Source: Crossaster papposus
Lineage: Eukaryota; Echinodermata; Asteroidea; Velatida; Solasteridae
DNA length: 64,000 bases
Assembly: GCA_037893245.1 (NCBI GenBank)
Contig: JBAIAA010000704.1
Location: 310,001-374,000 of the forward strand
Direction of reading: 5' to 3'
Shown here: positions 1-43,500 of the stretch, piece by piece
Numbering within the stretch: the stretch's first letter is position 1
Layout: every line of letters begins with the position of its first letter
The notes under the pieces: model-generated
The model's input: only the letters and a program-made list of their open reading frames with translations
Databases searched by the model: none
What the model was told of the DNA's origin: nothing
Made by a program: the position numbers and the translations under genes

Positions 1-181
1 AATTTCACAATTTGTGTGTATAAGGTTAATTAACTGTTACAAATAGTTTACACAAAAACTATGAGATATAAATCCAATGATGATGCTATAGTCTAACCTG
101 AGGTACCGTGTACCAAGTTAGATAATCGGTTAAATAATCGCTTTGCATTAGTAAGAGTTTTCTAGCAAAGGATCCACCTAC

Positions 182-3112
182 CGGAGATTTATATCCAGAT
201 AGCACCCACTCGTATCTTTTCTGACCACAGAGCATCACGGCGGGGGACGTCGTAGGGAACGCCTGGTCATGCCCAGCCATCTTCAGCACGTGGATCTTTG
301 CCTCGTCTCGGTTGCAGGTTTCGTTTGAGAGGTCCTCAATTGTTTCGTCCGAGTTGGTTTCGTGTTGGCAGTAAGGACAGCGAGGACCGAATGCGAAGCA
401 CAGCTGTGGGTAGTCCCTCGCTGTTATGCTCTTCACGGCGTTCAGCAAGAACCTCAGGAGCTTCCACACAGGATTTTGCTTCTCAAACGCCAAGGCGGTG
501 ACCGAGAGAACCACCTGTTGAGAAGAACGTCTCTCCAGCTGCAACTTAAAGCTGAAGCTCGTACTGATGTGGAACCGACAGCGGTCTGCAAAAATCAAAG
601 GCTTTGAGTTGGAATCAAGCCTGTCTACGCTGGCGTGTGTCAGGCAGCGGGTCAGTAGACGAGAGTAGACGGTGCTGGGATCGAAGAAACCAAAGTCAAA
701 GTAGAAGACATCCTCGTTACTTTGGGACTTCCAAAACTTCAGCGATTCACCCTGGTAAGGAGGCAGCATGGCAGGCACCAAGAAAGACTTCTGAGAGCAG
801 CTTAAGACAGACGCCACCGGACACATTAGGTCATAAGCCTGCAGAAGCTTGATCAGAAGTGGCACAAGATGGAACATGTCTCCGTAAATATGTTTCAGTA
901 GACCCTCCTTAATGATTCCACTGCTTTCGTAATCTCTCCAATCCACAGCAAAGCGATGCGATCGCCTAGAACCCCGAGGGATTCGTACGAGTTTCTTCAT
1001 GACGTCAATTAAAAACTGGGGGTCTAACACGACATGTTGTCGCAAGATGTCGTCGTCATCTTTGTGGATGATTTCTCCAGCCTCGCTGAAAAATCGTAGT
1101 ATTTTCTTCAAGTCGTCTTCGTTTGTTACATCGCAAGTATCTCTCGCAACGTCTCGGATTTGATCCAGGGACATCACGTAAGCAGCACAATCTGTCTGTG
1201 CCAATTTTCGACGATCCTGAATCTCGCGATAGAAGTGCAGATACTTGATGGGATATTTCTCCTGTGCGTATTCAGCGCTCTCGACCCGTCTGAATATTTC
1301 TGCTCTCAACTGCTGGAAGTCGTCGTCTACAGGTTGGGAATTTTCGACGAGAAACAGCGGTTTGTCGTCGACTGGGTTTAAGACTAGCCGATGGCAGAAG
1401 GGAGAGGTAATTATCCGGTGAAGTTCTTCAGTGAAACGCAACCTGTTTGCTTCAGAGACGCTTTCTTTGTGGGTGCCGACAATGATGACAACAGCGTCTG
1501 GGTGACGCGCATGTGCACATACTGAATGTAGCCAGAAGAGAAGTTTCTGCAGCTGCCCGTCTTCGTCAGAAACAGCGGCGTGGAGGTTGAAGACGATCAC
1601 GTACAGAGCTCTGTCTGGCATGAAGACGTGATGTGCGCAGTGGTATATAGTGTCTCCAGCAAAGTCCCATAAACTCAGCTTGGTCTCTAAGACCGGTTGT
1701 CCTTGGAGTACCGTATTTATCTGTTCACGGATAAGTTTCACAGGGAAGGTTGACTTTTCTCTCCATATCTTATAGATGTTGTGAAGATCAAACAAGGGAT
1801 GCGCCAGGACGGAAAGGAGGTAACATGTTATAGACAACACAGTTGCTTTCGGTATCCTTATTGTCCAACTAAAGACGTAAGTTAGGTACAGGCCCAAGAT
1901 GAAACCCGCAGTCTTCTTTGATACGTAACTAGCTCTGACTCCATATTTATGGATAGCTCTCCGGCCTATAATTGTCCCCCATGCCACTTGGATTGACATC
2001 AGAATTCCGTTCAGAAACAGGAACCAGTAGCGTCTGTTTTTGCAGTCTCCTTTAAGGCTCAGTGCAAGTAGCCAGGCTAGGAGGCCACAGCAGCCGGCAG
2101 TTCTGTATTTATGCCACCTGTCATTGAATGTACAGAAAAAGTAGCACCCTGTGCCAATAAGTACTCCTGTGCTTGATATCCCAGTCACCTCAAGCATGTC
2201 CCAAGAGACAACGGGAATCTCAGCAGAATCTTCTTGAGTCGCCTTGGCCTCTTTTGGATAATCACTCGCCGAGAAGGCAACAGCGACACCTGTACGACAA
2301 CCCAAACCAAAGGCTGCACCCAGCATAGCGGTATTAACCATATTCAACACCAGGTTCTGCACAGTACACCAAATCGTCTGGTTTACAAACCCGCCCACGC
2401 CCTTCTGACAGCTTGAAGCTTCTATCAAACCATCTCGTCTCATGCTTGCGTCAAAGAGGACAAGGAACAAAGATGCACACGTTGCGAACCGATAGGCAAA
2501 GTTGTAGTTGTGCATCAAGGTGAGTGCTCCGAATGTACACCACCCAAATGTCGTAAACCCGCACTTCAACCCATCAAATACAAGCACAACCTCGAGTAGA
2601 CAAAGTAACTGCAGGCCCAATTTTATTAACTCAAGTAACGTATGTGACTGTGTGGGGTGGTTCTGGCCCGATGTACCCTCTCCCTCCGATCCCAGTGTCG
2701 ACATTTCGCCAAGGACAGTCACCACTGAGGCACACTGCTGTATGTCATCTGCTTTGGCACCTTCGGATTCGTTCCATTGCTTGTCCACGTTAGTCACATG
2801 GCACATACGCGTCTCAATCCCCTCGGTGGGCTGTTCCCGGATGTCGAACTCCCTTCCCAGGAGCCGGTTCAGAAGACTGGTTTTACCTGCACGAGGCTCC
2901 CCGAGGATCAGGACCCGGGCTCGGTTGGTCGGTAGCTGACCGTCGGTCTTTGCTGCCGCGTAAGTCTCTCTCAGGGATCTATCCTTCAACAACTCAGTGA
3001 GGTGAATACTTCCGCTAAAGTCCGAAACGGGAGCCAAAGCCTGTAAGGAATCGCTGTGGTGCCCCCGGGCTGTTGACGATGATTTTGTGACGTCCATCAT
3101 TCTTCTTCTTGT
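182..3112 (-). CDS. TM-inserted Roc-COR GTPase, copy A (main coding exon, intact)
   Basis: The reading frame runs from 3100 (ATG; a second in-frame ATG at 3097 matches the start of copy B) through the whole exon without a break. Walker A GEPRAGKT lies at about residues 67-74 and switch-I TEGIE at 92-96. About 8-9 hydrophobic helices follow between residues 157 and 437. G3 WDFAGD is at 478-483, G4 THKE at 543-546, and a COR-like region spans about 615-830, including a stretch resembling other COR domains (FFSEAGEII, VVLDPQFLIDV). The frame stays open to 86, but a donor CCG|GTAGGT at 182/181, conserved in copies B and C, should end the exon; the Death exons would lie left of the window. An acceptor (AATTATAG) precedes the exon at 3113, and a consensus donor AAG|GTAAGTATG at 3241/3240 ends a non-coding leader exon. 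Predicted role: membrane-anchored GTPase in Death-domain signalling (inference). Confidence 0.85.
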
Positions 3113-5677
3113 CTATAATTAAAATAAGAAACATGTACAATTAAAGATTAAATGTTATTAATTATACAAAAATATATATATATTTATGTTTCATACACCA
3201 CCAGTTGTTACATGTATAACCTTTCACCTCACATACTTACCTTTGTCCACCTGTTAGCTCCTCTGTGTGATCCGATGTGAAACAGAAGGGTTGTTTGAAT
3301 GCCCTGTTATACAAAGCTTTACCCGATGACAAACTCGCAACGCCTGCAAAACAAATGCCTTTAGATAAAAAAGCAAAACAAAATACGTGTACAATTTCCC
3401 AACGAACCAGTGTTCAACCATTTCACACCGTGTTATTGTGAATGTCCCTCTGACCATGTCTATGCATGTATTGGGCAAGTGCCTTGCGCGTGTAGTGCTA
3501 AAAAACGACATAGAGTTTAAAACAAACACGGTGTTCAGCAGTGATTGCAATAACCACCCACGTGACAGACTCTCAGCCAATAGGAATAGGTAAACCTTAG
3601 GTAAGCATTTAATAATACTAAACCTACTCCGCGACCGGTAACTGCCAAACGTGCACTAACACGGATACACGGTTGCACTATAGCATCCGCATGTACCAGC
3701 GCTGAGCTCCACAAAGTCGTGAGCTGCTACTAACGTAAAGTAGTCAGCACCCAAACAACTATTTTCACTATTACTATTGTAACAGACCGATTGAAAGCGA
3801 AAGGTGAAGCTTGTAAAAAACACAAATAGTTCCTGTTGGAGGCAAACAATGGACCGATCCGGATTTGACCATAAGCCCCGCCCACCTTAGCAACGGCATG
3901 GCGACGCCATTACCTGGGTCAAGTTGCATGCGTGAACGTGACTGTGTGCGGGTGCGTGTACATACCATGTACATACGTACCTACGCCTACAAATGTACGT
4001 GTAGGCTTGGCCGGTAGAACACGTACAACGAAAATATTGATATAAACTTTAGGCGGGGACAAAATTACTATCAGCAAGCTAGCGGGTGAACTAAAAGGAT
4101 GACCATTATTTTAAGGAAGGGTGTAACCGCCACCAAGCCAGCTCTCATAGCCATGCAGTGTATATAACAGTTTGTTTCTTTAGTTGTATTTCCTCACACT
4201 AAAGCTAGTCACCAGCACACAGGCATCGTTGTGGCTTTCGATACATGCATGCTGCGTGGATCAAAGGGACTTGTTCTAGGTGTATATTAATAACTTGACC
4301 TTGGTTGGCCCCCTTATATTATTTCCTTAGAAGTTTGGGGTTCGTGCATTCCAAGGAGGGTGAGGTAATCTCTGGGTTTCTGTATGCCATATACATGTAC
4401 CATTATTTCATATAGCCAATTGCAGCGATCGGGAACACTACAAGTTAATATTTGCTCCATACCACCTTTTCCAGCTAATTTACAGATCATCCTTTAAGAC
4501 TTGGACCCGAGCACAGAGGTAACGATAAAGTGATTATTGTAGAACCTTGTGTAACTATTGTAGTTTATAAAAGTGAGAATTTAGGTGATTTGTAGACTAG
4601 TTTTCTGAGGATAATTTTCATATTGGATACAGACATTTTGTGAGGTCTACAGCACACATGTATTCTTGTGAGGATAATCTTTAACCTCTATTTTCGCTAG
4701 AGTTTTATTATAGCGTCTTAATTGATATTATTACATCTGTTTACTCGCATTATAATTAGTGCATGATAGTGAAAGTTTCTTACTCAAGAATTAGTTACTC
4801 TTTTGTTATTGCAGTTTTTACGTGAACCGTGAATCGTGAATCGTGAACAGCGAATCGCTAGTGTATTGCTACAAGTGAACAATTCGAGAGATCAGTAAAC
4901 TAGTGAATCGTCAATCTAAATGGTGAAAGTTATGTAGCCTCGTTAATGAAACAGTTGTTCGAGAGTGAATAAAAGACACCATATTCGAAACCAACACAAA
5001 GGGTATGTACAGTACATGGAGGATGGTTAATACCCCAGTCACAATTGGCTTGCGATGGGTTTGCGATTAGTTTGCGGCGGATTTCTAGGCATTTTCGACC
5101 GGGGCCCCACGGGACTCCTTGCGGCTGCCGGGTAATTTTTTGGCATCGGGCGGGCATCGAGTTACTTTTAACTCGGACTTAAAACCTGGTGCGGCGTTTC
5201 GCATCGCAAACTGATCGCCAATAAATCGGTCGATGCCTAGCCGATGTCTGGCAGGGCATCGCACACGTCGGGCGGGCGCCGAGCCAAATTTTGGACAACC
5301 CAGACAATCAATATTTCGGCCAGGCGCCGTCCACACGCCGGCCGGGTCCCGCCAGGCGTCCGGCCGACTTGGCGGTGCCTGGCCAGAAATCGGCCGGGGG
5401 CCAGACGGCGCCCTGCCGGCGCCCAGCCTGAAATCGGTCATGCATCGGCCGGGGCTCGCAGGGTAAAAAAAGCGGCCCATCTACATCTACACACAGTTTA
5501 TCACACAAGTTTCATAGTGCAAGTACTACATCTCTTCTTTAGCCACCAATGCAACAAGAACCAGGTTGTAGCGGTATAGCGTGCAAACGCCAACCTCTCC
5601 CTCAACCGGGCGACCTACACGCGCTGTGCAGGTGCCCGCAAGCGTTGTGGAGGTATCAACGGGATTTTCTTATTTAA

Positions 5678-9738: not shown

Positions 9739-12700
9739 CTGTGTGGAACGAAATGGGAGGAGGAGTAAATGCTTAGAGTACAAATCATTTCGTAAGCAAA
9801 CCAGACCTCTTGTCTTTCCCAAAATGCCTAATCTTTTCTAAAGAACCAGTTTCTCCAAAACTCATTTCAAGCATGCACGCTTGAAGGTATTGCCCTTTAT
9901 ATTAGAGAAATCACAATCCAGTAATTTCACTATTTGAGTGTACTGTGGGTTAATTAACTGTTACAAATAGTTTACACAAAAACTGTTAGATATAAATACA
10001 ATGATGATGCTATAGTCTAACCTGAGGGACCGTGTACCAAGTTAGATAATCGCTTTGCATTAGTAAGAGTTTTCCAGCAAAGGATCCACCTACCAGAGAT
10101 TTATATCCAGACAGCACCCACTCGTATCTTTTCTGACCACAGAGCATCACGGCGGGGGACGTCGTAGGGAACGCCTGGTCATGCCCAGCCATCTTCAGCA
10201 CGTGGATCTTTGCCTCGTCTCGGTTGCAGGTTTCGTTTGAGAGGTCCTCGATTGTTTCGTCCGAGTTGGTTTCGTGCTGGCAGTAAGGACAGCGAGGACC
10301 GAATGTGAAGCACAGCTGTGGGTAGTCCCTCGCTGTTATGCTCTTCACGGCGTTCAGCAAGAACCTCAGGAGCTTCCAGACAGGATTTTGTTTCTCAAAC
10401 GCCAAGGCGGTGACCGAGAGAAGCACCTGTTGAGAAGAACGTCTCTCCAGCTGCAACTTGAAGCTGAAGCTCGTACTGATGTGGAACCGACAGCGGTCTG
10501 CAAAAATCAAAGGCTTCGAGTTGGAATCAAGCCTGTCTAGGCTGGCGTATGTCAGGCAACGGGTCAGTAGACGAGAGTAGACGGTGCTGGGATCGAAGAA
10601 ACCAAAGTCAAAGTAGAAGACATCCTCGTTACTTTGGGACTTCCAAAACTTTACCGATTCACCCTGGTAAGGAGGCAGCATGGCAGGCACCAAGAAAGAC
10701 TTCTGAGAGCAGTTTGGGTTTAAGACAGACGCCACCGGACACATTAGGTCATAAGCCTGCAGAAGCTTGATCAGAAGTGGCACAAAATGGGACATGTTTC
10801 CGTAAATATGTTTCAGTAGACCCTCCTTGATGATTCCACTGCTTTTGTAATTTCTCCAATCCACAGCAAAGCGATGCGATTGCCTAGAACCCCGAGGGAT
10901 TCGTACAAGTTTCTTCATGACGTCTACTAAAAACTGGGGGTCTAACACGACATGTTGTCGCAGGATGTCGTCGTCATCTTTGTGGATGATTTCTCCAGCC
11001 TCGCTGAAAAATCGTAGTATTTTCTTCAAGTCGTCTTCGTTTGTTACATCGCAAGTATCTCTCGCAACGTCTCGGATTTGATCCAGGGACATCACGTAAG
11101 CAGCACAATCTGTCTGTGCCAATTTTCGACGATCCTGAATCTCGCGATAGAAGTGCAGATACTTGATGGGATATTTCTCCTGTGCGTATTCGGCGCTCTC
11201 GACCCGTCTGAATATTTCTGCTCTCAACTGCTGGAAGTCGTCGTCTACAGGTTGGGAATTTTCGACGAGAAACAGCGGCTTGTCGTCGACTGGGTTTAAA
11301 ACCAGCCGATGGCAGAAAGAATAAGTGATTCTCCGGTGAAGTTCTTCAGTGAAACGCAACCTGTTTGATTCAGAGACGCTTGCTTTGTGGGTGCCGACAA
11401 TGATGACAACGGCGTCTGGGTGACGCGCATGCACACATACTGAATGTAGCCAGAAGAGAAGTTTCTGCAGCTGCCCGTCTTCGTCAGAAACAGCGGCGTG
11501 GAGGTTGAAGACGATCACGTACAGAGCTCTGTCCGGCATGAAGACGTGATGTGCGCAGTGGTATATAGTGTCTCCAGCAAAGTCCCATAAACTCAGCTTG
11601 GTCTCTAAGACCGGTTGTCCTTGGAGTACGGCTTTTATCTGATCACGGATAAGTTTCACGGGGAAGGTTGACTTTTCTCTCCATACCTTATAGATGTTGT
11701 GAAGATCAAACAAGGGATGCGCCAGGACGGAAAGAAGGTAACATGTTATCGACGACAAATTTGCCTTCGGTATCCTTATTGTCCAACCAGAGACGTATGA
11801 TAGGTACAGGCCTAAGATGAAACCCGCAGTCTTCTTTAACACGTAACTAGCTCCGACTCCATATTGTCCCAAGAGACAACGGGAATCTCAGCAGAATCTT
11901 CTTGAGTCGCCTTGGCCTCTTTTGGATAATCACTCGCCGAGAAGGCAACAGCGACACCTGTACGACAACCCAAACCAAAGGCTGCACCCAGCATAGCGGT
12001 ATTAACCATATTCAACACCAGGTTCTGCACAGTACACCAAACCGTCTGGTTTGCAAACCCGCCCACGCCCTTCTGACAGCTCGAAGCTTCTATCAAACTA
12101 TCTCGTCTCATGCTTGCGTCAAAGAGGACAAGCAACAAAGATCCACACGTTGCGAACCGATAGGCAAAGTTGTAGTTGTGCATCAAGGCGAGTGCTCCGA
12201 ATGTACACCACACAAATGTCGTAAATCCGCACTTCAATCCACCAAATACAAACACAACTACGAGTAGAGAAACCTGCAGGCCCAATTTTATTAACTCTAG
12301 TAACGTATGTGACTGTGTGGGGTGGTTCTGGCCCGATGTACCCTCTCCCTCCGATCCGAGTGTCGACATTTCGCCAAGGACAGTCACCACTGAGGCACAC
12401 TGCTGTATGTCATCTGCTTTGGCACCTTCGGATTCGTTCCATTGCTTGTCCACGTTAGTCACATGGCACATACGCGTCTCAATCCCCTCGGTGGGCTGTT
12501 CCCGGATGTCGAACTCCCTTCCCAGGAGCCGGTTCAGAAGACTGGTCTTACCTGCACGAGGCTCCCCGAGGATCAGGACCCGGGCTCGGTTGGTCGGTAG
12601 CTGGCCGTCCGTCTTTGCTGCCGCGTAAGTCTCTCTCAGGGATCTATCCTTCAACAACTCAGTGAGGTGAATACTTCTGCTAAAGTCCGAAACGGGAGCC

Positions 12701-12903
12701 AGAGCCTGTAAGGAATCGCTGTGGTGCCCCCGGGCTGTTGACGATGATGTTGTGACGTCCATCTTTCTTCTTCTTGTCTATAATTGAAATAAGAAACACG
12801 TATAGAATTAAAGATTTAAGGTTATTAATTATTAACAAAATATCTATTTAGGTTTCATGTACCACCAATTGTTACATGTAACCTTTCACCTCACATACTT
12901 ACC

Positions 12904-16962: not shown

Positions 16963-19900
16963 ACCATGGATATCACAAAACCACCGTCGGCGAAGCAGGT
17001 CAGCGATCCCGTAAAAAATCTGGCTCCCGTTTCGGACTTTGGCAGAAGTCTTCACCTGGCTGCGTTGCTGAATGATAGTTCCCTCAAAGATGCCTACGCA
17101 GCAGCCAAGACGGACGGCCAGCTACCGACCAACCGAGCCCGGGTCCTGATCCTCGGGGAGCCTCGTGCAGGTAAGACCAGTCTTCGGAACCGGCTCCTGG
17201 GAAGGGAGTTCGACATCCGGGAACAGCCGACAGAGGGGATTGAGACGCGTATGTGCCATGTGACTAACGTGGACAAGCAATGGAACGAATCCGAAGGCGC
17301 CAAAGCAGATGACATACAGCAGTGTGCCTCAGTGGTGACTGTCCTTGGCGAGATGTCCTCGACTTGTACAGCAACGTCACCCGGACAATCGACGCACACG
17401 TTGCCCGAGTTGTTGAAATTGGGCCTGCAGCTATTTTGTTTATTCGTAGTTGTGTTTGTATATTTTGGTGGGTTGAAGTACGGGTTTACGGCATTTGTGT
17501 GGTGTACATTCGGAGCACTCACTTTAAGGCACAACTACAACTTTGCCTACCGGTTCGCAACGAATATATCTTTGTTGTGTGTTTTCCTTGACGCGAAAAT
17601 CAGACGAGATGGTTTGATAGAAGCTTCAGACTGCCAGGAGGGCGTGGGCGGGTTTGTAAACCAGACGGTTTGGTCTACGGTGCAGAACCTGATGTTGGAT
17701 ATGGTAAATACCGTTTTGATGGGTGCAGCCAATGGTTTCGGTTGTCGCACAGGTGTCGCTGTTGCCTTCTCGGCGAGTGCTTATCCAAAAGAGGCCAAGG
17801 CGACTCAAGAAGATGCTGCTGAGAGTTCCGTTGTCACCTGGGACATGTTCGAGGCGACTGTGATATCAAACACAGGAGTACTTATTGGCACAGGGTGCTA
17901 CTTTTTCTGTACATTTAATGACAGGTGGCATAAATACAGAACTGCCGGCTGCTGTGGCCTCCTAGCCTGGCTACTTGCACTGAGCCTTAAAGGAGACTGC
18001 AGAAACAGACGCTACTGGTTCCTGTTTCTGAACGGAATTCTGATTTCAGTCCAAGCGATATGGGGGACAATTATAGGTCGAAGAGCTTCCCATAAATATG
18101 GAGTCAGAGCTAGTTACGTATCAAAGAAGACTGCGGGTTTCATCTTGGGCCTGTACCTAACTTACGTCTTTAGTTGGACAATAAGGATACCGAAAGCAAA
18201 TGTGTCGTCTATAACATGTTACCTTCTTTCCGTCCTGGCACATCCCTTGTTTGATCTCCACAACACCTATAAGGTATGGAGAGAAAAGTCAACCTTCCCC
18301 GTGAAGCTTATCCGTGAACAGATAAAAGCCGTACTCCAAGGACAACCGGTCTTAGAGACCAAGCTGAGTTTATGGGACTTTGCTGGAGACACTATATACC
18401 ACTGCGCACATCACGTCTTCATGCCGGACAGAGCTCTGTACGTGGTCGTCTTCAACCTCCACGCCGCTGTTTCTGACGAAGACGGGCAGTTGCAGAAACT
18501 TCTTTTCTGGCTACATTCAGTATGTGTGCATGCGCGTCACCCAGACGCCGTTGTCATCATTGTCGGCACCCACAAAGCAAGCGTCTCTGAATCAAACAGG
18601 TTGCGTTTCACTGAAGAACTTCACCGGAGAATCACTTATTCTTTCTGCCATCGGCTGGTTTTAAACCCAGTCGACGACAAGCCGCTGTTTCTCGTCGAAA
18701 ATTCCCAACCTGTAGACGACGACTTCCAGCAGTTGAGAGCAGAAATATTCAGACGGGTCGAGAGCGCCGAATACGCACAGGAGAAATATCCCATCAAGTA
18801 TCTGCACTTCTATCGCGAGATCCAGGATCGTCGAAAATTGGCACAGACGGATTGTGCTGCTTACGTAATGACCCTGGACCAAATTCGAGACGTTGCGAGA
18901 GATACTTGCGATGTGACAAACGAAGACGACTTAAAGAACATGCTAAGATTTTTTAGCGAGGCTGGAGAAATCATCCACAGAGATGACGACGAAAGCTTGC
19001 CACAACATGTCGTGTTGGACCCCCAGTTCTTAGTTAACGTCATGAAGAAACTTGTACGAATCCCTCGGGGTTCTAAACGAGCGCATCGCTTTGCTGTGGA
19101 TTGGAGAGATTACGAAAGTAGTGGAATCATCAAGGAGGGTCTACTTAAACATATTTACGGAGACATGTTCCATCTTGTGCCACTTCTGATCAAGCTTCTG
19201 CGGGCTTATGACCTAATGTGTCCGGTGGCGTCTGTCTTGAACCCAAACTGCTCTCAGAAGTCTTTCTTAGTGCCGGCCACTGCTTCCCCTTTACCAAGGT
19301 GAATCGGTGAAGTTTTGGAAGTCCCAGAGTAACGAGGAGATCTTTTACTTCGACTTTGGTTTCTTCGATCCGAGCACCGTCTACTACCGTCTGTTGACCC
19401 GCTGTCTGACAAGGTTTTGGTTTGACCAGAAGCCAAACCCGAGTTCCCTGCCGGTGATCTTCGCGGATCGAAGCCGGTTCCCTGTCGGATCAAACTTCAC
19501 CCTCAAGCTCCAGTTGGAAAGATCGTGCCAGCAGATGCTTTTGTCGGTCACCATCTTGGCATTTGAACCGAATACACCGAGTACACAAATTCTTAAGGAG
19601 ATTGTAGACTTCGTCAGGAGCATAACCGACAGGGACTATCCGCAGTTATGCTTCGATTTCGGTCCTCGCTGTCCTTTCTGCGCGGTTGGAGTCCTATCGG
19701 GAAAATCAAGTGGGGACCTCTTCCAAGACACATGTAGAAACAACAATGGCGACCAAGTGAAAATGCACGTGATGAAAATGGCCGGGCGTGACCAGCCGTT
19801 CCCGACAGAATCACCAGTACATCTGTTCTGCGGTCAGCAGAGATACGAGCTGAAGCTGCCTACAAGTAAACCAAGTGTAGGTTCAAAATTATTTCAAGTT

Positions 19901-20115
19901 GTGAAAACACGATTTGTGATATCATTTAAAACAACACATTGACTCCACAGCAAAAACAAACTTGGCACACTTAAAAATAATAATTATCGAATCTCACATA
20001 AATGTAGACCTATGTCAGCTGCAGTAACACTCTCACGCTCATCGTCTGACCTTGATGTTATTACATGAAGTTAACTTTGTCCATTACAAGTCTCAATTGT
20101 CTCCAAATTCTTTAG

Positions 20116-27700: not shown

Positions 27701-30700
27701 ATCGCAAAACAACAAAAATAACATAAAAATAACTGCTCGACGCCGGTTGAAAACAAACGCTGTTTTTCGTGATTTTCTCGGCATCCACGATTGTTAAACT
27801 TCGTACAGGTCAGTTAAACGATATTTACTATAAAATACAACCCCCCAAATCCACCCATTCATAATAATTCAAACAATTACCAATGGTGTATCCTACCTTT
27901 AAAATAAAATCCAAACTCATTTGGTTGTCCGGGTTAATATTTCTCATAGCCAACGACCCAGCCGTTCAGCTTTTCGCCGCCTTGGTAAAGGGAGACCCCC
28001 ATGCCCTCAACCTGACATGGACCGTCTCAAACAAGGGGCAGCAAGTCATGGAACACGGAATGCCCCGGTATTTCTCTATCAGCTACGTCTTGGTGAACCG
28101 CTACGGGTGCCAAGCCGTGCCCAACACCACCCAGTACGGCGACCGGCAGTCGGTGGACACGATCCTCCGTGGCGACGGCAGCCAAGAGTCCGGTCAGTTC
28201 ACGCTATCCGGACTTGAACCAAACTCTGGCTATCGCATTTACATTAAGGCCTACACGTCGAGTTTAACCTCCACCGAATCCACCACGTATGGGTGGACCA
28301 GCCAAAAGGGTGGGTATTAAATTTGAGGTTTGTTTTGATCTCCATTGTGTATTGACATGACATTGTAATTCTTGTAAAAAATGTGAAACAGTTATTGACA
28401 TTGGCCGTCATCGTGCAGTATACTGCAACTTCAGTGTACCTATAATGAGTAGGTTTTATTTTTTGTATACACATTTTATAGAACAAATGCCTCAATGGTT
28501 CTGATTGTCTTAACCAGTTTGTGTCACTGTCAGGTGACGTGTATACATTCAAAACGGATGACGGGTAAACGCGTCACGAGAATTGCCGGAAATGTCCGTC
28601 AGCGACTGTCTCGCAGCGAGCGAGGCTGTAAAAAATTAGGGTGTGCTACCCACAGATGCCGGCCTGAACCCGTCTCGGATTGAGGTTCGTGAAAAACAAT
28701 CCCACGCCTGCGCCCAGTCAATGACAAAATAGGCCTAATCCCGGCACGATCTGAAGTGATGAAGCCGCGGTGCACACATTTGCGATCTTCTCTCTAATGA
28801 ACCCTGTTGAGTTCATTTTTATGCGCAGTTCCAGTAGATGCACCTACCGGATTGACACTGATCCGCAACGAATCTACACAGACGTTCCTTAAGTTTGCCT
28901 GGGACCAGGTACCATGCACGGCCGGCAGCAGGTCCAGTCCCTTCCTGGCCTACCACTACAACCTAAACAGCGACGAAGACCCCACCGCTGGTCACTCGCT
29001 AGAGACGACAGCAGTGGAGGCGTCAGTGGGCGACCTCAAGCCGTACACCCGGTACAGGTTCCGGGTGCGGTACAAGAGCGAAAGGGGCAACGGGCCGTAC
29101 AGTGAACAACTCCATGCCGTCACATGTAAGTCAGACTGTCAGAAGTCTTCACTTTGCTAATGTGCGGCGCTTATAGGTGGCCACTTCCACTGCCCTTCCA
29201 CTGCCCTTCCACTGCCCTTCCACTGCCCTTCCACTGCCCTTCCACTGCCCTTCCACTGCCCTTCCACTGCCCTTCCACTGCCCTTCCACTGCCCTTCCAC
29301 TGCCCTTCCACTGCCCTTCCACTGCCCTTCCACTGCCCTTCCACTGCCCTTCCACTGCCCTTCCACTGCCCTTCCACTGCCCTTCCACTGCCCTTCCACT
29401 GCCCTTCCACTGCCCTTCCACTGCCCTTCCACTGCCCTTCCACTGCCCTTCCACTGCCCTTCCACTGCCCTTCCACTGCCCTTCCACTGCCCTTCCACTG
29501 CCCTTCCACTGCCCTTCCACTGCCCTTCCACTGCCCTTCCACTGCCCTTCCACTGCCCTTCCACTGCCCTTCCACTGCCCTTCCACTGCCCTTCCACTGC
29601 CCTTCCACTGCCCTTCCACTGCCCTTCCACTGCCCTTCCACTGCCCTTCCACTGCCCTTCCACTGCCCTTCCACTGCCCTTCCACTGCCCTTCCACTGCC
29701 CTTCCACTGCCCTTCCACTGCCCTTCCACTGCCCTTCCACTGCCCTTCCACTGCCCTTCCACTGCCCTTCCACTGCCCTTCCACTGCCCTTCCACTGCCC
29801 TTCCACTGCCCTTCCACTGCCCTTCCACTGCCCTTCCACTGCCCTTCCACTGCCCTTCCACTGCCCTTCCACTGCCCTTCCACTGCCCTTCCACTGCCCT
29901 TCCACTGCCCTTCCACTGCCCTTCCACTGCCCTTCCACTGCCCTTCCACTGCCCTTCCACTGCCCTTCCACTGCCCTTCCACTGCCCTTCCACTGCCCTT
30001 CCACTACCTATGTGAAGCACAGTCAGGGGTCCCTTTGCACCGTGGTTTAGTTATTTTTCGGTTCGAAAGGACCTCTGACTTCACTTCACAAAATAGGGTC
30101 TGGAGCTAAAAAATACTGGCCCAAATCAAGAAATATTGGAATAAATTTTCTTCTAAAAGGATTATCCATCCATTGGTATATCTAGGTAGTTGTGGCTTTT
30201 GTAGTTGTCTACTAAAAAAAGGTCAAGATTGAAATACAGCTCATTTTCCTTATCCACTCTGCAGCGGGCAAAGTGAGCCTCACTCAAGAAACCGAGGTAG
30301 CGGCTGGTGAAACGGTGGAGCTCGCCTGCAAAGGCTGGGGCTCCTCTATTTTCACTCTTCCCGGTCCAGACTACCTGATTCTTGAGGGACCAAAGGGGAA
30401 GGGTCAGAGGTCGAGCACCACGGTCAGTGGACTGGTGCGCACGAATCGCTTCCGGGTGGTCGTGGACGGACCCGAAGCTGAGTTCAAGTGCACTCTGCAC
30501 CACGATGGAGTGAGCGAGGCCCTGGGGACAGACTCCCTTACGGTTAAACTCTACGGTAAATCCAAGTCATCATCTTATGCCTCGTACCCTATCCAGCCAG
30601 GGGCCATTTTCATAGAGCTGCTAAGCACAAAAATGTGCTTAGCACAAACAAATCTGGCTCAATAAAAACAGGTTACCAGCCAAATTTCTACGTGTTTTTC

Positions 30701-33700
30701 ATGCTAAGCAAACAACCAGCTGATTATCAATCAAAAACAATAAAGATCACGTGAAAATTTGGTCTGTAACCTTGTTTTTGCCAAGGACAAATTTGCATGC
30801 TAAGCATATTTTTGTGCTTAGCAGCTCTATGAAATTGGCCCCAGGTGCGCTGGTGGTAGTCTTTTTTTCCTGAACTCTCATTGGTTTAGATTTGTGGACG
30901 GGTCGTCTAATACATTCCCCTGCGAACACGTAATGCGCATGAATTACATTAATCATGAACATGATGAGCTCTTTTTTACCTGCAGCCGTCATTAGCGCCT
31001 TAAACCATTCAGATGGGTCGATAAGAATCGAGAGACATTTCGCATTGTGTGTAACTTTATGACGGATGCCATGGTACTGTCCAGCAAGCGCTTGTTCCAC
31101 AGAACTTTAGAAAATAAGTTTAGTGGGAAGAGGTGTCCCTACATTTTTCTACATGAAAAACATACATGTTGTGTGAAAGGATTTTTGCTGGAGTGTGCTG
31201 TGGTCCCCATCTGTTGACGAGAGATTTACCCTAAAATGTAGGTTAAATTTTTGGCTTAGTAAAGTAAGGTAAAGGGGAGGTTTATAAGTGATAATTCCTA
31301 ATTGACCACAAAACAAGGTTTCCCACCATTTTGCAATCTGCGCTTCTTAGATTTACACACATAATTAGATGACTCCGAATTCGTTGTGCTGCATCCAATT
31401 AGAAAAGCCGCATCTGCAGACGGCACCCGCAGTCCAGATGGGGGTCCCCTCCTCGGACAACGCTACCGTGACGTGGCTGCCATGGGCGGCCGATGGAGGC
31501 GGCGATGGCCCGGTCGACGATCAGAAGGTCGTGTGGCGTCGCGCGGGCGATCTCGCATACAGGAACATGGCTGTTAAGTCTGGTTCGGTCTCTGCCGTGA
31601 TCGGCAATCTGGAACGGGACGCCAAGTACGAGTTTGCCGTGGTGCTCTTTCGGAAGGGAATCCCTGGACCACCAAACAAAGGTAAAGCCGAGTTCCCATT
31701 GGACTTTTTTCTTCCGCAGCCTCGCGATAACTTGCCGCGACAATTCTTTGTGTAATTCTTACATGCGTTCCCACTTGGACTTTACGTTTCATTCTCTGTT
31801 TGACAACTTTCTCAACTTTGACCTAAACGGGATATGAGGCAAAATAAAATAAAAATATGTTTAGCGTCACCAGCCGCTTCCTTTGTTCTTTTTTTGTTCT
31901 TTTTGAAAAAAATGATAAATTTGGTTAAAATAAATGGTAAATTTTTTTTAAGATCGTATTCTAGACTTTAGCATCACTGTGTACATGTTCTGGAAATATA
32001 TTTGTTTCTAATAGGAAGGCTAGGGTGTGACGTGTAGTCGTGTACGGTGCATACATGATCGACCCACATGAATTTAGATTTTTAATCGTGGGTGAACCAT
32101 GTTTTAATTTTAATACCGGTACCGCGGCTGAGCAGAAACTTTCCGCGACCACTTTCAGCCTGGTAGTTTTACATCACCGTTGCAGTACACGTTGACAGGC
32201 AATTAGTCTACCGCGCGTTCCCATTGGATTTAATTCTACAGAAATGTCGTGGTACGTTAACCCCCCCCCCCAAAAAAAAAAAAAAAAAAATCCTTATAAG
32301 AACAGGCTTAACTCGGCTTGTCATGTTTACGTCTGCAGCGACGTTTGTCGAAGCTATGGTTGAAGGCACCACTACTCCAGTCGTGCCAAATCATGCGAGG
32401 AAAAGCGCGGGAAACAAGGACGGCTACCATAATCTGTTCGGGCCGGAGACCGACAACTTGATCATTGCCGGGGTCTGTGGGATATTCTTGGGCGTTTTGA
32501 TTCTTCTGTCGGTGTTTGGAGTGTGGTGCACGAGCCAAAAGGTTGGTGGAACATCTACCAATATCTACGCTGTAAAACAAAGTTGGGTAAAAACATATTT
32601 GGCCACTGTTATTTGCCCAACATTAGTATAATTTATTACATTGTTAGTCAGATTAGGTAAACATTGACTAACTAGTGGGAAGAATTTGCAAAGGGTTGTA
32701 GGTATAGTTAATATGTTGATGATAATTGGGCAAAATATCAACCCATTTTGACCGACTTTTTTACAGTGATACCTGCCTTTCTTCTGTTTTCTTTTTTTGA
32801 TGTGATTTTGTTGTTTTCTTTTGTATTTTAATTTGAATGTATTACACATGTACTTTGTGTTGTTATGGGTTAAATTGCCTGACCCTAAGTATTATAAAAA
32901 AAACATCCAAAAACTGCAGTGGATTTATGAAGTTCAATGGTGTAATCTACAGGTTTGTTTTGCTTCCTGAAGTAAAAATTGTATCCTTGTCTGTTAAACC
33001 CAATATATTTCCAGCCAAAACAAAAAACTGTTATAGGAAACAGTCACATGCAGCAGATTATTTCATAGTGTTTATCAAGGTTTGTAATACATGTACAAGT
33101 ATTGCCAAGGAAATATGCTTAGTAGGTTGCTAGGTTCATAACATTGACCGGCCCTGATGGATATAATTGACCATCGGATAAATTGTTTAAACCAAATGAA
33201 ATAATAAATGGGAATATGTGACCTGTTCCTACGAAACCCGACATAAGTCACATAGGCTATTTCGAGATACAGCTCATTAAAGTTGAAATGGGGTGAAAAA
33301 TCTGGCGGACATCGATTTTTGGTTTTCGTTATTTTTTTATTCTTTAATATGTATACTTTAACCCTCAGTTAGGTTAAACAAAATTAACTATTGATGAGAA
33401 AGTACAAAAATCATGGATTTATTGAGGCAAACTGTAGCCTAAAATTGGTAATTTATCTCCCAAATACATCGAAATAAAATCCTTATAAAATTGGAAGTAT
33501 GTATGGTATAAAGGTGGTTTTGGTACCAAATGAAAGCTGACGATGTGTACTAAATGGAAATAACAATATCTCACAATAACAAAAAAACACTTATGTCTGT
33601 TTTTGTGGGAGCAGGTCACATATATGGGAAAGACTACACTATCTGGAAGATAATGTATCTCGCGTCTTACTCTTATAAAAAATTGTCCACAAAAGGATGA

Positions 33701-37536: not shown

Positions 37537-40500
37537 ATAGCAATGGATGCTAAGTTTTCAACCTATCTCTCTGGCTTCAATGGGTTTGGCCGCAGTTTCA
37601 ACCGCGGTGTGTTGGCTGACGACTTGGGCTTACACCAAGAGTACAGGGAGGCTCTCATCAACGGCTCGCTGCCCTGCAATCGACTGAGAATCCTGACCAT
37701 TGGCGATAAAGGTGTGGGCAAGTCTAGCACCCTAGGGTACCTGCGGGACGAAGTGTGCGATCCAGGTGCTGAACCGCAGGCAACAGAAGGGATTGATATT
37801 ACCATATGCGAGACCAGCGACCAGGAACCAGCCTGGAAAGCCTGCGTCACCGGCAAGTGCCAGTCGGCTGATGATCCTACTCTATGCGCTGCTTGGTGCG
37901 TTTGTAAAGGTATCGATAGCATGGCAGGCGTCTTTCACAACATAAAAAAGGATCAAGAGACTGCACCTGACCAGGGAATTCTCGGACAACCTCTTCAGTG
38001 TCTTGGCTCCCTCCAAGCAAAGTGTACAAGTTCATCAGGGCATTTCAGAAGTGTATTTCAGGCTCTCAGTCAAATCCTCCTGCGTTTGTTTTACCAGATA
38101 AAGTTGTCTACCCCATCAGTTATTCTGTTTTTCCTGCTTTCTTACGTATGCAACCTCAACGATTTTGGTGTCCTCTGCTGGCTGGCAATATTCTTGTCGG
38201 TGCCATCGTTTAAATGGGACTTCAATTCCTCCTACCGCTTCATCACAGTGGCGTCTATTCAGTTAGTATCCAATGGCATAGTTGTTTCTGTCAAAGAATA
38301 CAGTGAGAGTCTAAGAGAGAATCAAAATGTGCATCCGTTATGGTTGCTGACGATATCTATCGTCTTGTACTTGGGAGTGTGTGCCATGGGCGTAGGGTTG
38401 GGATTGCTCTGTGGACTGGGATGTCGTAGCGGGGTGGCGGTTGCTTACTGTCTGATGAACCAGCGGTACCTGTTTCACCAGAATGGCAAAGGTTTTGCTG
38501 TCTTGGCCATCAGCAATCTTTTAGGACTTCTCCTATTGCGGGATGGCTTTAAGTGCATCCAGAAAATCGTTCACAGCCGGAAGTTATTCCGTGCAAGTCT
38601 CTTTGCTGTGGTAGTTGGCCTGTTGGTGACAAATTATCAACCACTGGTCAACTATATTGATAAGGTGTACATGTATATTTTTGATGTTGTGGTTGGCATT
38701 CTGATGGGGTTCGGGTTACCCTACGGAGTCCTCAAAGGACGCGAGATTGTCGTCGTCAGAAAGCTTATGCTCCCATACATGTTGAAAAAGTCTTTTGGCT
38801 TTTTTGTTGCCATCTTAGTCGGCCATCTAATTGGATGGGAGCTGTTGATATTTAGTAAGACTTCAACATGGCTGTCGGTCATTTGTTCTGTACTCGCTGC
38901 TTGCGGGTTCCCACTGTATGATTGGCTGGTGACTCAGAAGGTGAAGCGTCTGGAAAAGGATAACATCCCAATCACAATCTTTCAGAAGTTTTTAATTGAC
39001 TCTGCCTTCCAAGACAACCCTGTTAGCCTCAAGCTTCACTTCTGGGACAATGCCGGGGACAGTGCCTACCAGACCATGCAGCAATTCTTCAGACCAGCAG
39101 AGGCTGTTTATCTGCTGGTGTTTAATCTGAAGGATGCCATGGAAGATGACCGGCAGCAGCTCCAGCGTTTGCGCCAGTGGCTCTTCGTGGTGAAGGCTCA
39201 CTCCAAGAATCCAAACACACTGGTCTTCATTGTCGGCACACACAGAGACAGTGTTGAAAGGGACTTCATTGTGAGTTTTGGCTCCCAAATCGATGACCAA
39301 CTTTACAATGACTTTTGCAGCATCTTGGCCATAAATGGTGACAAGGGACCTCTATTTCTTGTCGAGAATTCCCAGGCAGTTGATGAAGATGGTCTTAAGC
39401 TTCGTCAGTCTATTATTAGTTTTGCGAAGACCGCACCGTTCATGAATGAGCTCTTCCCCATTCGACACCTGAGTATCTTAAACAAGATACAAGAGATGCA
39501 GTTCGATCTCCATCTGCCATGGATCATGACTACGTCTGATCTTCTTCGTGGCATAGCCAGAGAGGACCTGACCCTGGAAGAGTTGCACAAAATTATTGTA
39601 TGTTTGCATCGCACTGGTGATGTCATATACAGAGACGATGACCACATTCTGAAGGAGTATGTCATCATCAGGTCTCAGAGTCTCCTGGATGTCCTGAAAG
39701 CACTTGTACGCATTCCTCCCAGGGATACTCGACGTTTGACTGAGGCAGAAGACTGGCGGGCTCTGGAAGTGCAAGGCATTGCCTCGCTGAGCCTCATCAA
39801 GGCTGTAGTTGGTTCGGCAACCCTACTACCATGTGTACTGAGATTGATGGAGGCTTATAATCTACTAATACCTGTCTATTCAAGCAGCTCTTCTCTGCAG
39901 CCGCAGAAGCAAGATGATGAAGCCCCACCCTCATCACCAGAATCCAGCTTGGATTTAGGAGCTCCCCAAGAGGTGCTTCCTAATCACTGCATCCTACCGA
40001 GTCACCTTCCTGAGTTCACTGGAGAGAATGCTGACTTTTGGGAACCCTCTTCAGAAGATGAAGAATACTTTTTTGACTTTGGCTATGCTGCCCCACTGGC
40101 AGACTCCATCATCCATCGTCTCTTGGCCAAGTGCTGGTGCGACAGGGATATTGTTGAAAGGGTGAGTACATCAAACAAAATATTTTAGCCATTGACCTAA
40201 TAACGCCGGTACTCAATTGTAGCACATTGTGTTTTTTCACTAAAGATTAAAACTAGAGCATACTTCGGCGGGGCGTTTGTTGGCAATTATTGACTATATA
40301 TAGACTCAGGAAGCCAAGATAAAGCATTCATCTTCTTTTATTGTGAATTATCTTACAGGTCTACAAAACCAGAGGTCGTTTCAGGTACCAGGGAGCAAAC
40401 TTCTACACCATTCAGCTACTGAAGATTTCCGTCTCTCAAAACACGATCCAAGTGATTGTCTTGCATGATGGGCAAAACAGATACGCTTTGCAGGTATGCA

Positions 40501-43500
40501 TTAAAAAAAAACTGTTTCGTATCAATTGTCGTCAAAGCCACTTGTGTTAACCAGTTCACGCCGGATGACGTATATAAACGCAAACATTTCCCCAAACTTA
40601 AACGGATGACGCATAAACACGCCAAGGTTAAGTTCGGAAATGTCTGTCAGCAGCGAGCAAGGCCGGAAATGCGTGGGTGTGCTTCCTGGCACTATCAGCC
40701 TAAACCCGCTTCGGATCGAGTTTCGTTAAAAATAATCCCGCCCCTCGGCTCGGCGATGTTAAAATAATCCCGGCGCGAACTGGTTAAAAACAAATCAGTC
40801 TTTGGGTCACAACCTTGTTCCAGGTTTTCGTCTGCGGCGCTCTGCTCTTAACAATTTGTGAGGGTCGACAGTCCGAAAGCCAAGGGCACAAGGATGATCC
40901 CAACTTTTGAATAGTAAATCCTATTCACCCATGGACAAATAGGAATTTTTGAGCCCATGCGTGAATGGGAGCAATAATGAATGTCACGTGATGCGAGTTC
41001 CACCAATCCAATGAAAAAGATCTGTATGTCAGTCGGGATTTTTCTCTGATGATCGTTGTCTGGATATAATGTCCGGTGATAATGTTCTCCCACCATTTTT
41101 TACACTACCAGGTGCTCCATTTTCTGTACACTCTCCTGGAGGAAATCCGCGGCAAGGATTTTCCCAACCTGCCGTACACCTGCGGACCTGCCTGCCGCAC
41201 ATGCAGCTCCAGCAATTTCCTGCAAATCTTCAAGGTCTGCGGCGACGACAAGACGTTCCCCACGGCTAACATGCCGTTTGAGGCATTTATGCCACAGGGG
41301 AAGTACCACGAGGTTCATCTGACGCCACAGGTACAGTAGCTGTCACACATTCGATTCCTAAAGTTTTTTTACTATTTTTTCACGATGAAAATCAATTACA
41401 TTTTGTTCGTTGGTTTTAAGGTAGGATACACCATTTGCAGATAGCGAACATATTTACTACAGAATTATTAAGAAATATCCTACTTATTTGAAAGTGAATA
41501 TTGATTGTAGGCATCCAGCAAAATGATTGCGCTAGATATCCTATAATTGTTCCGAAAGTTTAATTTTAATAAAAAAAACATTTATGGACGGCGAAAAACA
41601 AGAACAGCATAAGAACCACTGCCCGACGCCGGTTGCTTTCTTCGGCATCCATAATTGTAAAACTTCGAACAGGTCAGTTAAATGATATTTACTATAAAAA
41701 ACAACCCCCAAAATCCACCCATTCAGGATAATTCAAGCAATTACCAGTGGTGTATCCTACCTTTAATTGGGAATTATACAACATTTGCAAACATAAAAAA
41801 AAACAAACTACCAAATTATTATGAAATATACCTTTCAAGATTTTCGTGAACGACAGTCTAAAGCATTCTGTAAAATTATGACACCTGGTGTGTCGTCATT
41901 TTAAGGAAAGTGGTATTTTTATCAGTTTCCAATTAGTTTGTTGCTGATTTTTGTTAATTTGCCTCTTGGAAAGACAAGTTACATTTTGTCAATACATGTT
42001 TACCGCAGTTGAAAGTAACATGTGGAAGGCAAAGGGCTAGTTCCTCCAATTCATCTAGCAACTCACAAACAGACTGCGAAACGTCTGAAGGTGAGACTTT
42101 CTTAAAAAAAAATAAACTTGTCAAATAAATAATGTATTATTTAATTATTTTGTTTTTGTATTGGATTCTTAACATTCTTTTGGCCTTGGAATCAAGGCAA
42201 AGGAACGCTCCGAAATTTTATTACTGAGTGCTACTTAAAGTTTTTATTAGAATTTTAGTAAAATTGTTATTTAAAGGGATTGTATACGTTTGGTAATTAC
42301 TCCAAAAAATTTTGGCAATAAAAACTTACTTGGTAAGAAGTACAGCAGCTTTGGATAGTATAATGCATTTTTAGAAACTTTTCACTTCGAAGTACTCCGG
42401 TTATGGAAAAAGATATTACTTTTTATACCCAAAAATTTGAATCTGAGAAGCGTTACTGCAGTGACGTTTCTCAGATTGTGTATTCTTCCTGCGTGGTCAT
42501 AACCGCTCGAGAATTTCGGCAATATCTCAAAAATCGCTACCACCTTTTGAAATGAAACTTTTACAGGTTAGTTTTATAGTATATATCTATAACTATATAG
42601 GATTGAAATAAACAGTGGGTCCCAATTACCAAACGTATACGATCCCTTTAATACCATTTCTGCACCAAATTATAATTAAATCCATACATCATAATGTGAT
42701 AGTAATACAAACTCTATCATGTTTCCGTTTAGCTTCGGTTTCGGTTTTGAGTGCCATTGTAGGAATGAACACAGATTTGCTTAAAATTCTTTTGAATATA
42801 CTTGGATTGAAACTACAGTAAAATATTTTGTACTACTGTCTGCAGCACAAATATAATACGTCAAGAAGAATGGACGAGGCGAAGCCGAGTTAATTGTTGC
42901 ACGAATCTACAGTTCCGACTTAATCTTTTTTCTTGTTAACAACAAGGGTTTGTTCAAATAACATTTTTGGCTTGCCGCAATCCCCACGTTTGTGAATAAT
43001 TGTGGATTCGTAAAGTTACCCATGCGCACATGTATATTTAGTCGATGTATATGTACAACGAATGGAAGGCATCCGTAGTTCGGTTCGTGTCTCCTCAAGG
43101 TGGCACCTCGCTCACAACAAAAACTGTCGATTCGAGACGAATCAACAGGTACATGTAGATTCGTGAAAATAATCTACACTTTCAACAATAGTACGACGTC
43201 ATAGAAATATATTACTGCAGTAGAAGTAATTTGTATTTGTCAAAATAATTCCATTTGACGTCACAAAGCATTCTCCGGATCTGAAATGTGTTTATTTGCG
43301 AATTTGCAGCACAATTAAAACACTTCTACAGATGTCACAAATATATGTTGGCGTTCGCTTTCAAGTTCACGCCAATTATGAACCAGGCATAATTCTGTGG
43401 ATAAAAGTCGAATAAATATTCTCTGTTTGTTTGAAGAGCCTCCGCCGAATAACCAGATCTTCGTGGGGGAAACTTCCAACCGTGTCACTGTGATTACTGC

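Follow-up and report, generated by a model that had tools for sequence, protein, structure and literature searches.

A predicted membrane domain within the Roc GTPase domain of a sea-star Roco gene family

Introduction

The locus described here raises the question of whether a GTPase domain can hold a whole membrane domain between its G2 and G3 motifs. The locus lies in a 64,000-nucleotide stretch of the genome of Crossaster papposus (GenBank assembly GCA_037893245.1, contig JBAIAA010000704.1, positions 310,001 to 374,000 of the forward strand), hereafter called the window, whose numbering is used throughout. An earlier note, made from the letters of this stretch, had described a gene close to its beginning, here called copy A, in which the two parts of a Roc domain are separated by a hydrophobic region. 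The reading preferred here, at a probability of about 0.6, is that copy A encodes a Roco (Roc-COR) protein with a polytopic membrane domain placed in the beta2-beta3 interswitch hairpin of Roc, between G2 and G3, where it senses or anchors and biases the switch.

A Roc domain in two parts

Copy A occupies a frame running from 3100 to 89 on the minus strand; the extent of 182 to 3112 proposed in the earlier note was slightly off at both ends. The following features, all on the minus strand, were assigned to it.

3113 to 3240, minus: probable 5' untranslated intron (donor AAG/GTAAGT, 12.5 bits; acceptor TTATAG, 8.5 bits; splice matrix)
89 to 3100, minus: coding sequence of copy A, a single frame of 1004 codons with ATG at 3100 and stop at 86-88
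2786 to 2932, minus: N-terminal half of Roc, residues 57-105 (beta1, P-loop, alpha1, switch I, beta2)
2879 to 2902, minus: G1 or P-loop, GEPRAGKT, residues 67-74
2813 to 2827, minus: G2 or switch I, TEGIE, residues 92-96
2645 to 2785, minus: polar N-terminal linker, residues 106-152, with boundaries set by the analyst
1781 to 2644, minus: predicted membrane-domain insert, residues 153-440, with nine hydrophobic segments
1688 to 1780, minus: C-terminal linker, residues 441-471, with a helix predicted at 453-466 (structure model, low confidence)
1271 to 1687, minus: C-terminal half of Roc, residues 472-610 (beta3, G3 and the remainder of the G domain)
1652 to 1669, minus: G3, WDFAGD, residues 478-483
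1463 to 1474, minus: G4 position, THKE, residues 543-546
764 to 1210, minus: COR-A, residues 631-779 (PF16095, 40.2 bits, cut-off 35.3)
89 to 757, minus: C-terminal part, residues 782-1004, without a Pfam match and COR-B-like by eye

The P-loop, TEGIE and WDFAGD motifs were located at the residues previously given for them, and the separation of about 380 residues then estimated corresponds to the 381 residues counted between TEGIE and W478. The two halves of Roc are themselves 366 residues apart.

The split-Roc insert was found in five genes of this genome, named A to E. The window carries A, B, C and the divergent D, while E is a frame of 1012 codons on another contig, C179, and is 61% identical to A over A residues 21-976. 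Second copies of A to D are present on contig C690, and the full open frame of B found there is called B' below. A search for homologues of the same order had been suggested in the earlier note; the order of P-loop and TEGIE, insert and G3 is shared by all five genes, and the G1 to G3 motifs are present in the alignment of A, B', C, D and E.

The Roc profile PF08477 (cut-off 27) matches A with 68.5 bits, C with 65.4, D with 53.8 and E with 62.7, in each case as two stretches. Those of A span profile positions 1-50 and 28-118, which is nearly all of its 119 positions, and the insert appears as surplus. COR-A follows just after Roc and scores above its cut-off in A and in E (36.6 bits). Pfam searches of A, D and E revealed neither a leucine-rich repeat nor a kinase, nor any further domain. 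A structure model of A, aided by homology, matches Roc-COR structures. The expectation that both halves would join in one G domain was upheld in this model, whereas the insert itself obtained a predicted local distance difference test score (pLDDT) below 50.

A Roc domain split between G2 and G3 by a hydrophobic insert of several segments, as first described from copy A, is thus supported by the five-paralog alignment, the two Pfam stretches, the splice scan reported below and the homology-aided model. The insert occupies the beta2-beta3 interswitch turn, and with polar linkers of about 47 and 31 residues joining it to Roc, the fold may close without strain.

Coding status of the insert

If the hydrophobic stretch were removed by splicing, as a retained intron or exitron, the mature protein would contain an ordinary Roc. 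This explanation is considered very improbable. No stop codon interrupts the reading frame between codons 97 and 470 of A, against 12-22 in each of the other five frames, and the frame of the insert is also open in the window copy of C, in D, in E and in the second copy of B. Alignment gaps within the insert of A, B and C are multiples of three, or in C neighbouring gaps of 4 and 17 whose sum is one; the deletion of B described below is the exception. The absence of an intron, which the earlier note had reported, was confirmed as far as a generic splice matrix of limited sensitivity allows, no acceptor above 6 bits being detected in codons 60-500 of A. With the same matrix, three acceptor-like sites were found in the insert of C and one in that of D, each in the early part of the insert and away from its end. 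What speaks for splicing, without supporting it directly, is that C has a donor-like site close to either end of the region (11.1 and 8.4 bits) and D has one before it (8.1 bits). The matrix is moreover not fully sensitive, since it missed the acceptor expected before the presumed last exon of D (none above 7 bits in 40701-41030).

Selection on the insert was estimated as the ratio of nonsynonymous to synonymous substitution rates (dN/dS) by the Nei-Gojobori method with bootstrap intervals. Between A and C, dN/dS is 0.56 (0.37-0.88) for residues 106-440, compared to 0.19 for G3-G5 and 0.17 for COR-A. For residues 153-440 the values are 0.67 (0.44-1.13) for A/C, 0.51 (0.32-0.82) for B'/C and 0.57 (0.35-1.02) for A/B'; D and its second copy yield 0.51 on 16 changes. 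COR-A of A/B' also reaches 0.56, with a wide interval of 0.18-2.51. Synonymous sites are saturated between A and E, where residue identity amounts to 42% in the insert versus 78% in G3-G5. These ratios point to purifying selection on the insert, looser than that acting on the G domain. Ratios below 1 and the conservation of the insert in D and E also argue against its removal by splicing.

Hydropathy and topology of the insert

The eight to nine hydrophobic segments counted previously were recovered as nine non-overlapping windows of 19 residues with a mean Kyte-Doolittle hydropathy of at least 1.0 between residues 150 and 440 of A, two more being located elsewhere in the protein. Nine such windows are likewise present in B', C and E, and eight in D. 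In A the mean hydropathy is +0.52 for the insert versus -0.31 for the rest of the protein, and across the five paralogs it ranges from +0.42 to +0.84 over the roughly 290 residues of the insert versus -0.19 to -0.31 outside. The insert of D is in frame, and in the five-paralog alignment its hydrophobic segments fall at places matching those of A and a common motif, GLGCR(T/S)GVAVA, is seen. A genome search with the insert (E up to 1) produced 12 matches, all of them in genes A to E or their second copies, two being at 0.43-0.44.

Both flanks of the insert belong to one domain, which requires an even number of spans. As nine is odd and both flanks must be cytosolic, at least one of the nine segments is probably not membrane-spanning. 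Arrangements with both ends inside were therefore scored by the number of Lys and Arg inside minus those outside, summed over the five paralogs. Eight-span arrangements score 57, 55, 47 and 43 upon omission of segment 1, 3, 4 and 2, respectively, and become negative upon omission of segment 8 or 9, while six-span variants score up to 63. The predicted membrane domain would probably have 8 (6 to 8) spans.

Alternatively, the insert might form a hydrophobic helical domain without crossing the bilayer, or be only partly embedded in it, in a reentrant or peripheral manner. The odd segment count, the charged residues between closely spaced segments and the moderate peaks of A-C (the best at 2.05-2.33, several at 1.0-1.4) are compatible with such a domain. 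So is the comparison with 1000 shuffles of each insert, which average 5.9 peaks in A, 5.7 in B', 5.2 in C, 8.1 in D and 7.2 in E (maxima of 9, 9, 8, 12 and 10): residue order adds something to the number of peaks in A-C and nothing in D, whose eight peaks do not exceed the shuffled mean. The sustained hydropathy of the insert in all five genes, the peaks of 2.0-2.3 attained in D and E and the placement of Lys and Arg inside by the best even topologies nevertheless make this proposal a rather unlikely one.

The insert has no match among PDB chains at E up to 10. Its best Pfam families reach only E 0.22 (TMEM100 and CyanoTRADDas_TM, each in one of the five members), and no Pfam transporter family was found for the five inserts.

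The gene family and its relatives

The other members of the family in the window are the following.

10013 to 12762, minus: copy B, broken in the window by a 250-base deletion within the insert near 11866
16966 to 19302, plus: copy C, with an intact insert and a change of frame after codon 771
19271 to 19942, plus: continuation of C in a different frame (its C-terminal part), with 58% identity to A 777-975
37543 to 40188, plus: copy D, with 881 codons before the first stop, 33% identity to A and an intact insert
40161/40162: probable donor closing the first exon of D (10.0 bits), with further C-terminal similarity at 40992-41315

The copies of A, B, C and D on C690 keep the relative order observed in the window, and for this reason we read them as the other haplotype. 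No second copy of E was found among the genome matches listed. The deletion in B, present in the window and absent from C690, corresponds either to a broken allele or to an assembly fault. In C the frame is lost near codon 771 in either copy, after which the C-terminal part is still open for 223 codons; the second copy also has a TGA inside the insert, which is open in the window copy. A C-terminal fragment at C690:621498-621911, flanked by the second copies of D and C, is 52% identical to A 843-978 and has no counterpart among the matches listed on C704, the contig of the window.

Residues 47-106 of A (window 2783-2962) are 90-93% identical to E at the DNA level, other blocks of 20 codons ranging from about 25 to 87%. 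The synonymous divergence (dS) between A and E is 0.26 for residues 60-105 and above 1.3 or saturated in every other region. The high local identity and low dS suggest gene conversion between A and E in the tract of the P-loop and switch I.

Relatives were also sought outside the family. Pattern scans based on the alignment retained 47 stretches in viral contigs and 57 in prokaryote genomes, none of which proved to be a relative by tblastn, and the sole PADLOC match was a weak one to the P-loop (mads_8, E 0.0025 in A). Within the genome, PF08477 gave at least 124 matches, 150 candidates out of 268 having been scored. Of 30 loci retrieved, 26 were read by eye, four of these in the wrong orientation and hence without sense, and most looked Rab-, Ras- or Arf-like. 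Of the 18 matches from the COR-A search, seven belong to A, B, C, E or their second copies, and D has none. Contig C292 carries a multi-exon Roco whose G3 exon lacks a hydrophobic insert. As no P-loop exon was located for it within 13.6 kb, this gene does not serve as a clean control.

Nucleotide site and proposed mechanism

The P-loop, the Thr of G2 and the Asp of G3 are retained in all five genes, and an Asp follows DxxG. Given the conserved P-loop, nucleotide binding seems likely. The G4 position reads THKE in A, THKA in B', C and E, and THRD in D, and the guanine specificity of A, B, C and E appears uncertain. Among Rocos the length of switch I varies much, according to a passage of PMC6337361.

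These residues bear on a further alternative, in which the protein is a pseudo-GTPase scaffold: the Roc fold would be kept with weak or no binding of guanine nucleotides, and the membrane domain would merely anchor Roc-COR. The altered G4 in four of the five genes and the Asp after DxxG fit such a scaffold, as does an insert evolving faster than the G domain (the A/E identities given above), which would be expected of a mere anchor. On the other hand, constraint is strongest in the P-loop and switch I, with 46 of 46 residues identical between A and E at positions 60-105, an argument weakened by the possible gene conversion there. D retains THRD, and known Rocos vary at G4-G5, as PMC6337361 also describes. 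A pseudo-GTPase is accordingly regarded as a doubtful alternative.

Under the preferred reading of a membrane domain within the interswitch hairpin, this domain would enter and leave the bilayer on the cytosolic side, the Roc halves would assemble a single nucleotide site below it, and the protein would stay permanently membrane-bound. The membrane domain would sense or anchor. Its state would be transmitted through the two linkers to the interswitch, which connects switch I to switch II, and the resulting bias would affect nucleotide loading and hence the Roc-COR conformation or dimer cycle, the putative output. The interswitch is a plausible coupling point because ARF proteins tie it to membrane association by another device. 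A more elaborate version, advanced only tentatively, would combine receptor and G protein in one chain. A signal within or across the membrane would, through the multi-pass interswitch sensor, directly move switch I against switch II, and the sensor would thereby serve the Roc-COR output as its own exchange or hydrolysis factor.

If the preferred reading is correct, a Ras-type switch tolerates, and perhaps uses, a whole membrane domain in its interswitch, and a natural system exists that links membrane sensing and nucleotide state mechanically. A permanently membrane-bound Roco could also help to ask how membranes control LRRK2-type Roc-COR cycles, usually studied with proteins recruited to membranes by other means.

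A number of observations weigh against this reading. Two of the three bootstrap intervals for residues 153-440 (A/C and A/B') touch 1. COR-A stays below its cut-off in D (15.5 bits) and barely so in C (35.2). The closure of the G domain is in part a product of homology, since ordinary Rocos were included in the alignment used for the model; AlphaFold2 run with the five window sequences and without ordinary Rocos reached a pLDDT of 33.7. Whole-protein shuffles of A average 9.35 peaks, so that the number of peaks alone is within chance and the weight rests on how they cluster in one stretch and recur at corresponding positions of the paralogs. Damage affects B in the window and C in both of its copies. 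A, B, C and E lack the Asp of G4, which leaves GTP not assured as the nucleotide. Finally, a passage of a review on ARF proteins states that the interswitch toggle is absent from Ras and G-alpha (PMC12554972).

Other observations in the window and assembly

A perfect tandem array with an 11-base unit (74.7 copies, 100% matches) occupies 29184-30005 of the window. Open frames at 27868-28320 and 32167-32631 resemble, by eye, a fibronectin-type domain and a single-pass segment, and may belong to a receptor gene located between C and D.

The mitochondrial contig C1841 carries tRNA-Gln, cox1, then nad4L and cox2, with nad1 on the other strand (order partly read by eye), which we take to be the sea-star mitochondrial order. 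The matched COX1 stretch uses TGA 13 times and TGG never, and of its seven AAA codons six align with Asn in the solved mitochondrial COX1 8ugh; AAA encodes Asn in the echinoderm mitochondrial code. The mitochondrial features point to an echinoderm, probably a sea star, and led to the rejection of a lancelet as the source. Contig C8, of more than 5.2 Mb, carries genes for subunit I of bacterial haem-copper oxidases (CyoB as the top NCBIfam match, below cut-off) and is probably a bacterial genome within the assembly.

Comparison with known systems

The best sequence and fold matches are ordinary Rocos (LRRK1/2, the archaeal Roco2 4wnr and the C. tepidum Roco), in which Roc is likewise followed by COR. 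Their beta2-beta3 turn is short, as seen in the archaeal Roco L071 with about 41 residues, counted by eye, from GKT to the Asp of WDFGG, whereas 366 residues including a predicted membrane domain are present here. No Roco with a membrane domain inside Roc was found in the open-access literature searched. Some Ectocarpus ROCOs end in domains for which a passage of PMC4104024 gives homology with other ROCO or with transmembrane proteins, and these transmembrane-like regions are C-terminal, unlike the present insert within Roc. One long brown-algal ROC domain contains an inserted non-conserved sequence that is not described as membrane-spanning in the relevant passage of PMC11378527.

In FeoB a G domain is followed by a membrane transporter. 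The inserts of A to E lack a transporter family match, and the FeoB_N scores of 12.9 bits in A and 13.4 in E are below the cut-off of 27 and confined to the P-loop part. The helical insert of G-alpha is soluble and lies between G1 and G2, in contrast to the hydrophobic insert of A to E between G2 and G3. A passage of PMC8358228 describes this helical region within the Ras-like GTPase domain. The interswitch of ARF is coupled to membrane association, as a passage of the review cited above states (PMC12554972); its toggle acts via an N-terminal myristate and not via an inserted membrane domain as proposed here.

The KAP NTPases (Kidins220/ARMS, PifA and Tmn) have transmembrane helices within a P-loop NTPase domain, the spans of A to E being predicted from sequence. 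The KAP helices lie between Walker A and Walker B. Their insertion in the NTPase domain was reportedly described by Aravind and colleagues in 2004. KAP proteins belong to another P-loop family and have two or four helices, unlike the insert of A to E; the KAP family in Pfam gave no match for A (E up to 1) or for C, D and E (E up to 10), under HMMER filters that drop most weak matches. Two or four transmembrane helices inside the NTPase domain are mentioned in a passage of PMC7145615, and a passage of PMC11846954 presents Tmn as KAP-type with transmembrane helices in that domain. Since KAP NTPases have them, membrane helices inside a P-loop domain are a principle that already exists in another P-loop family.
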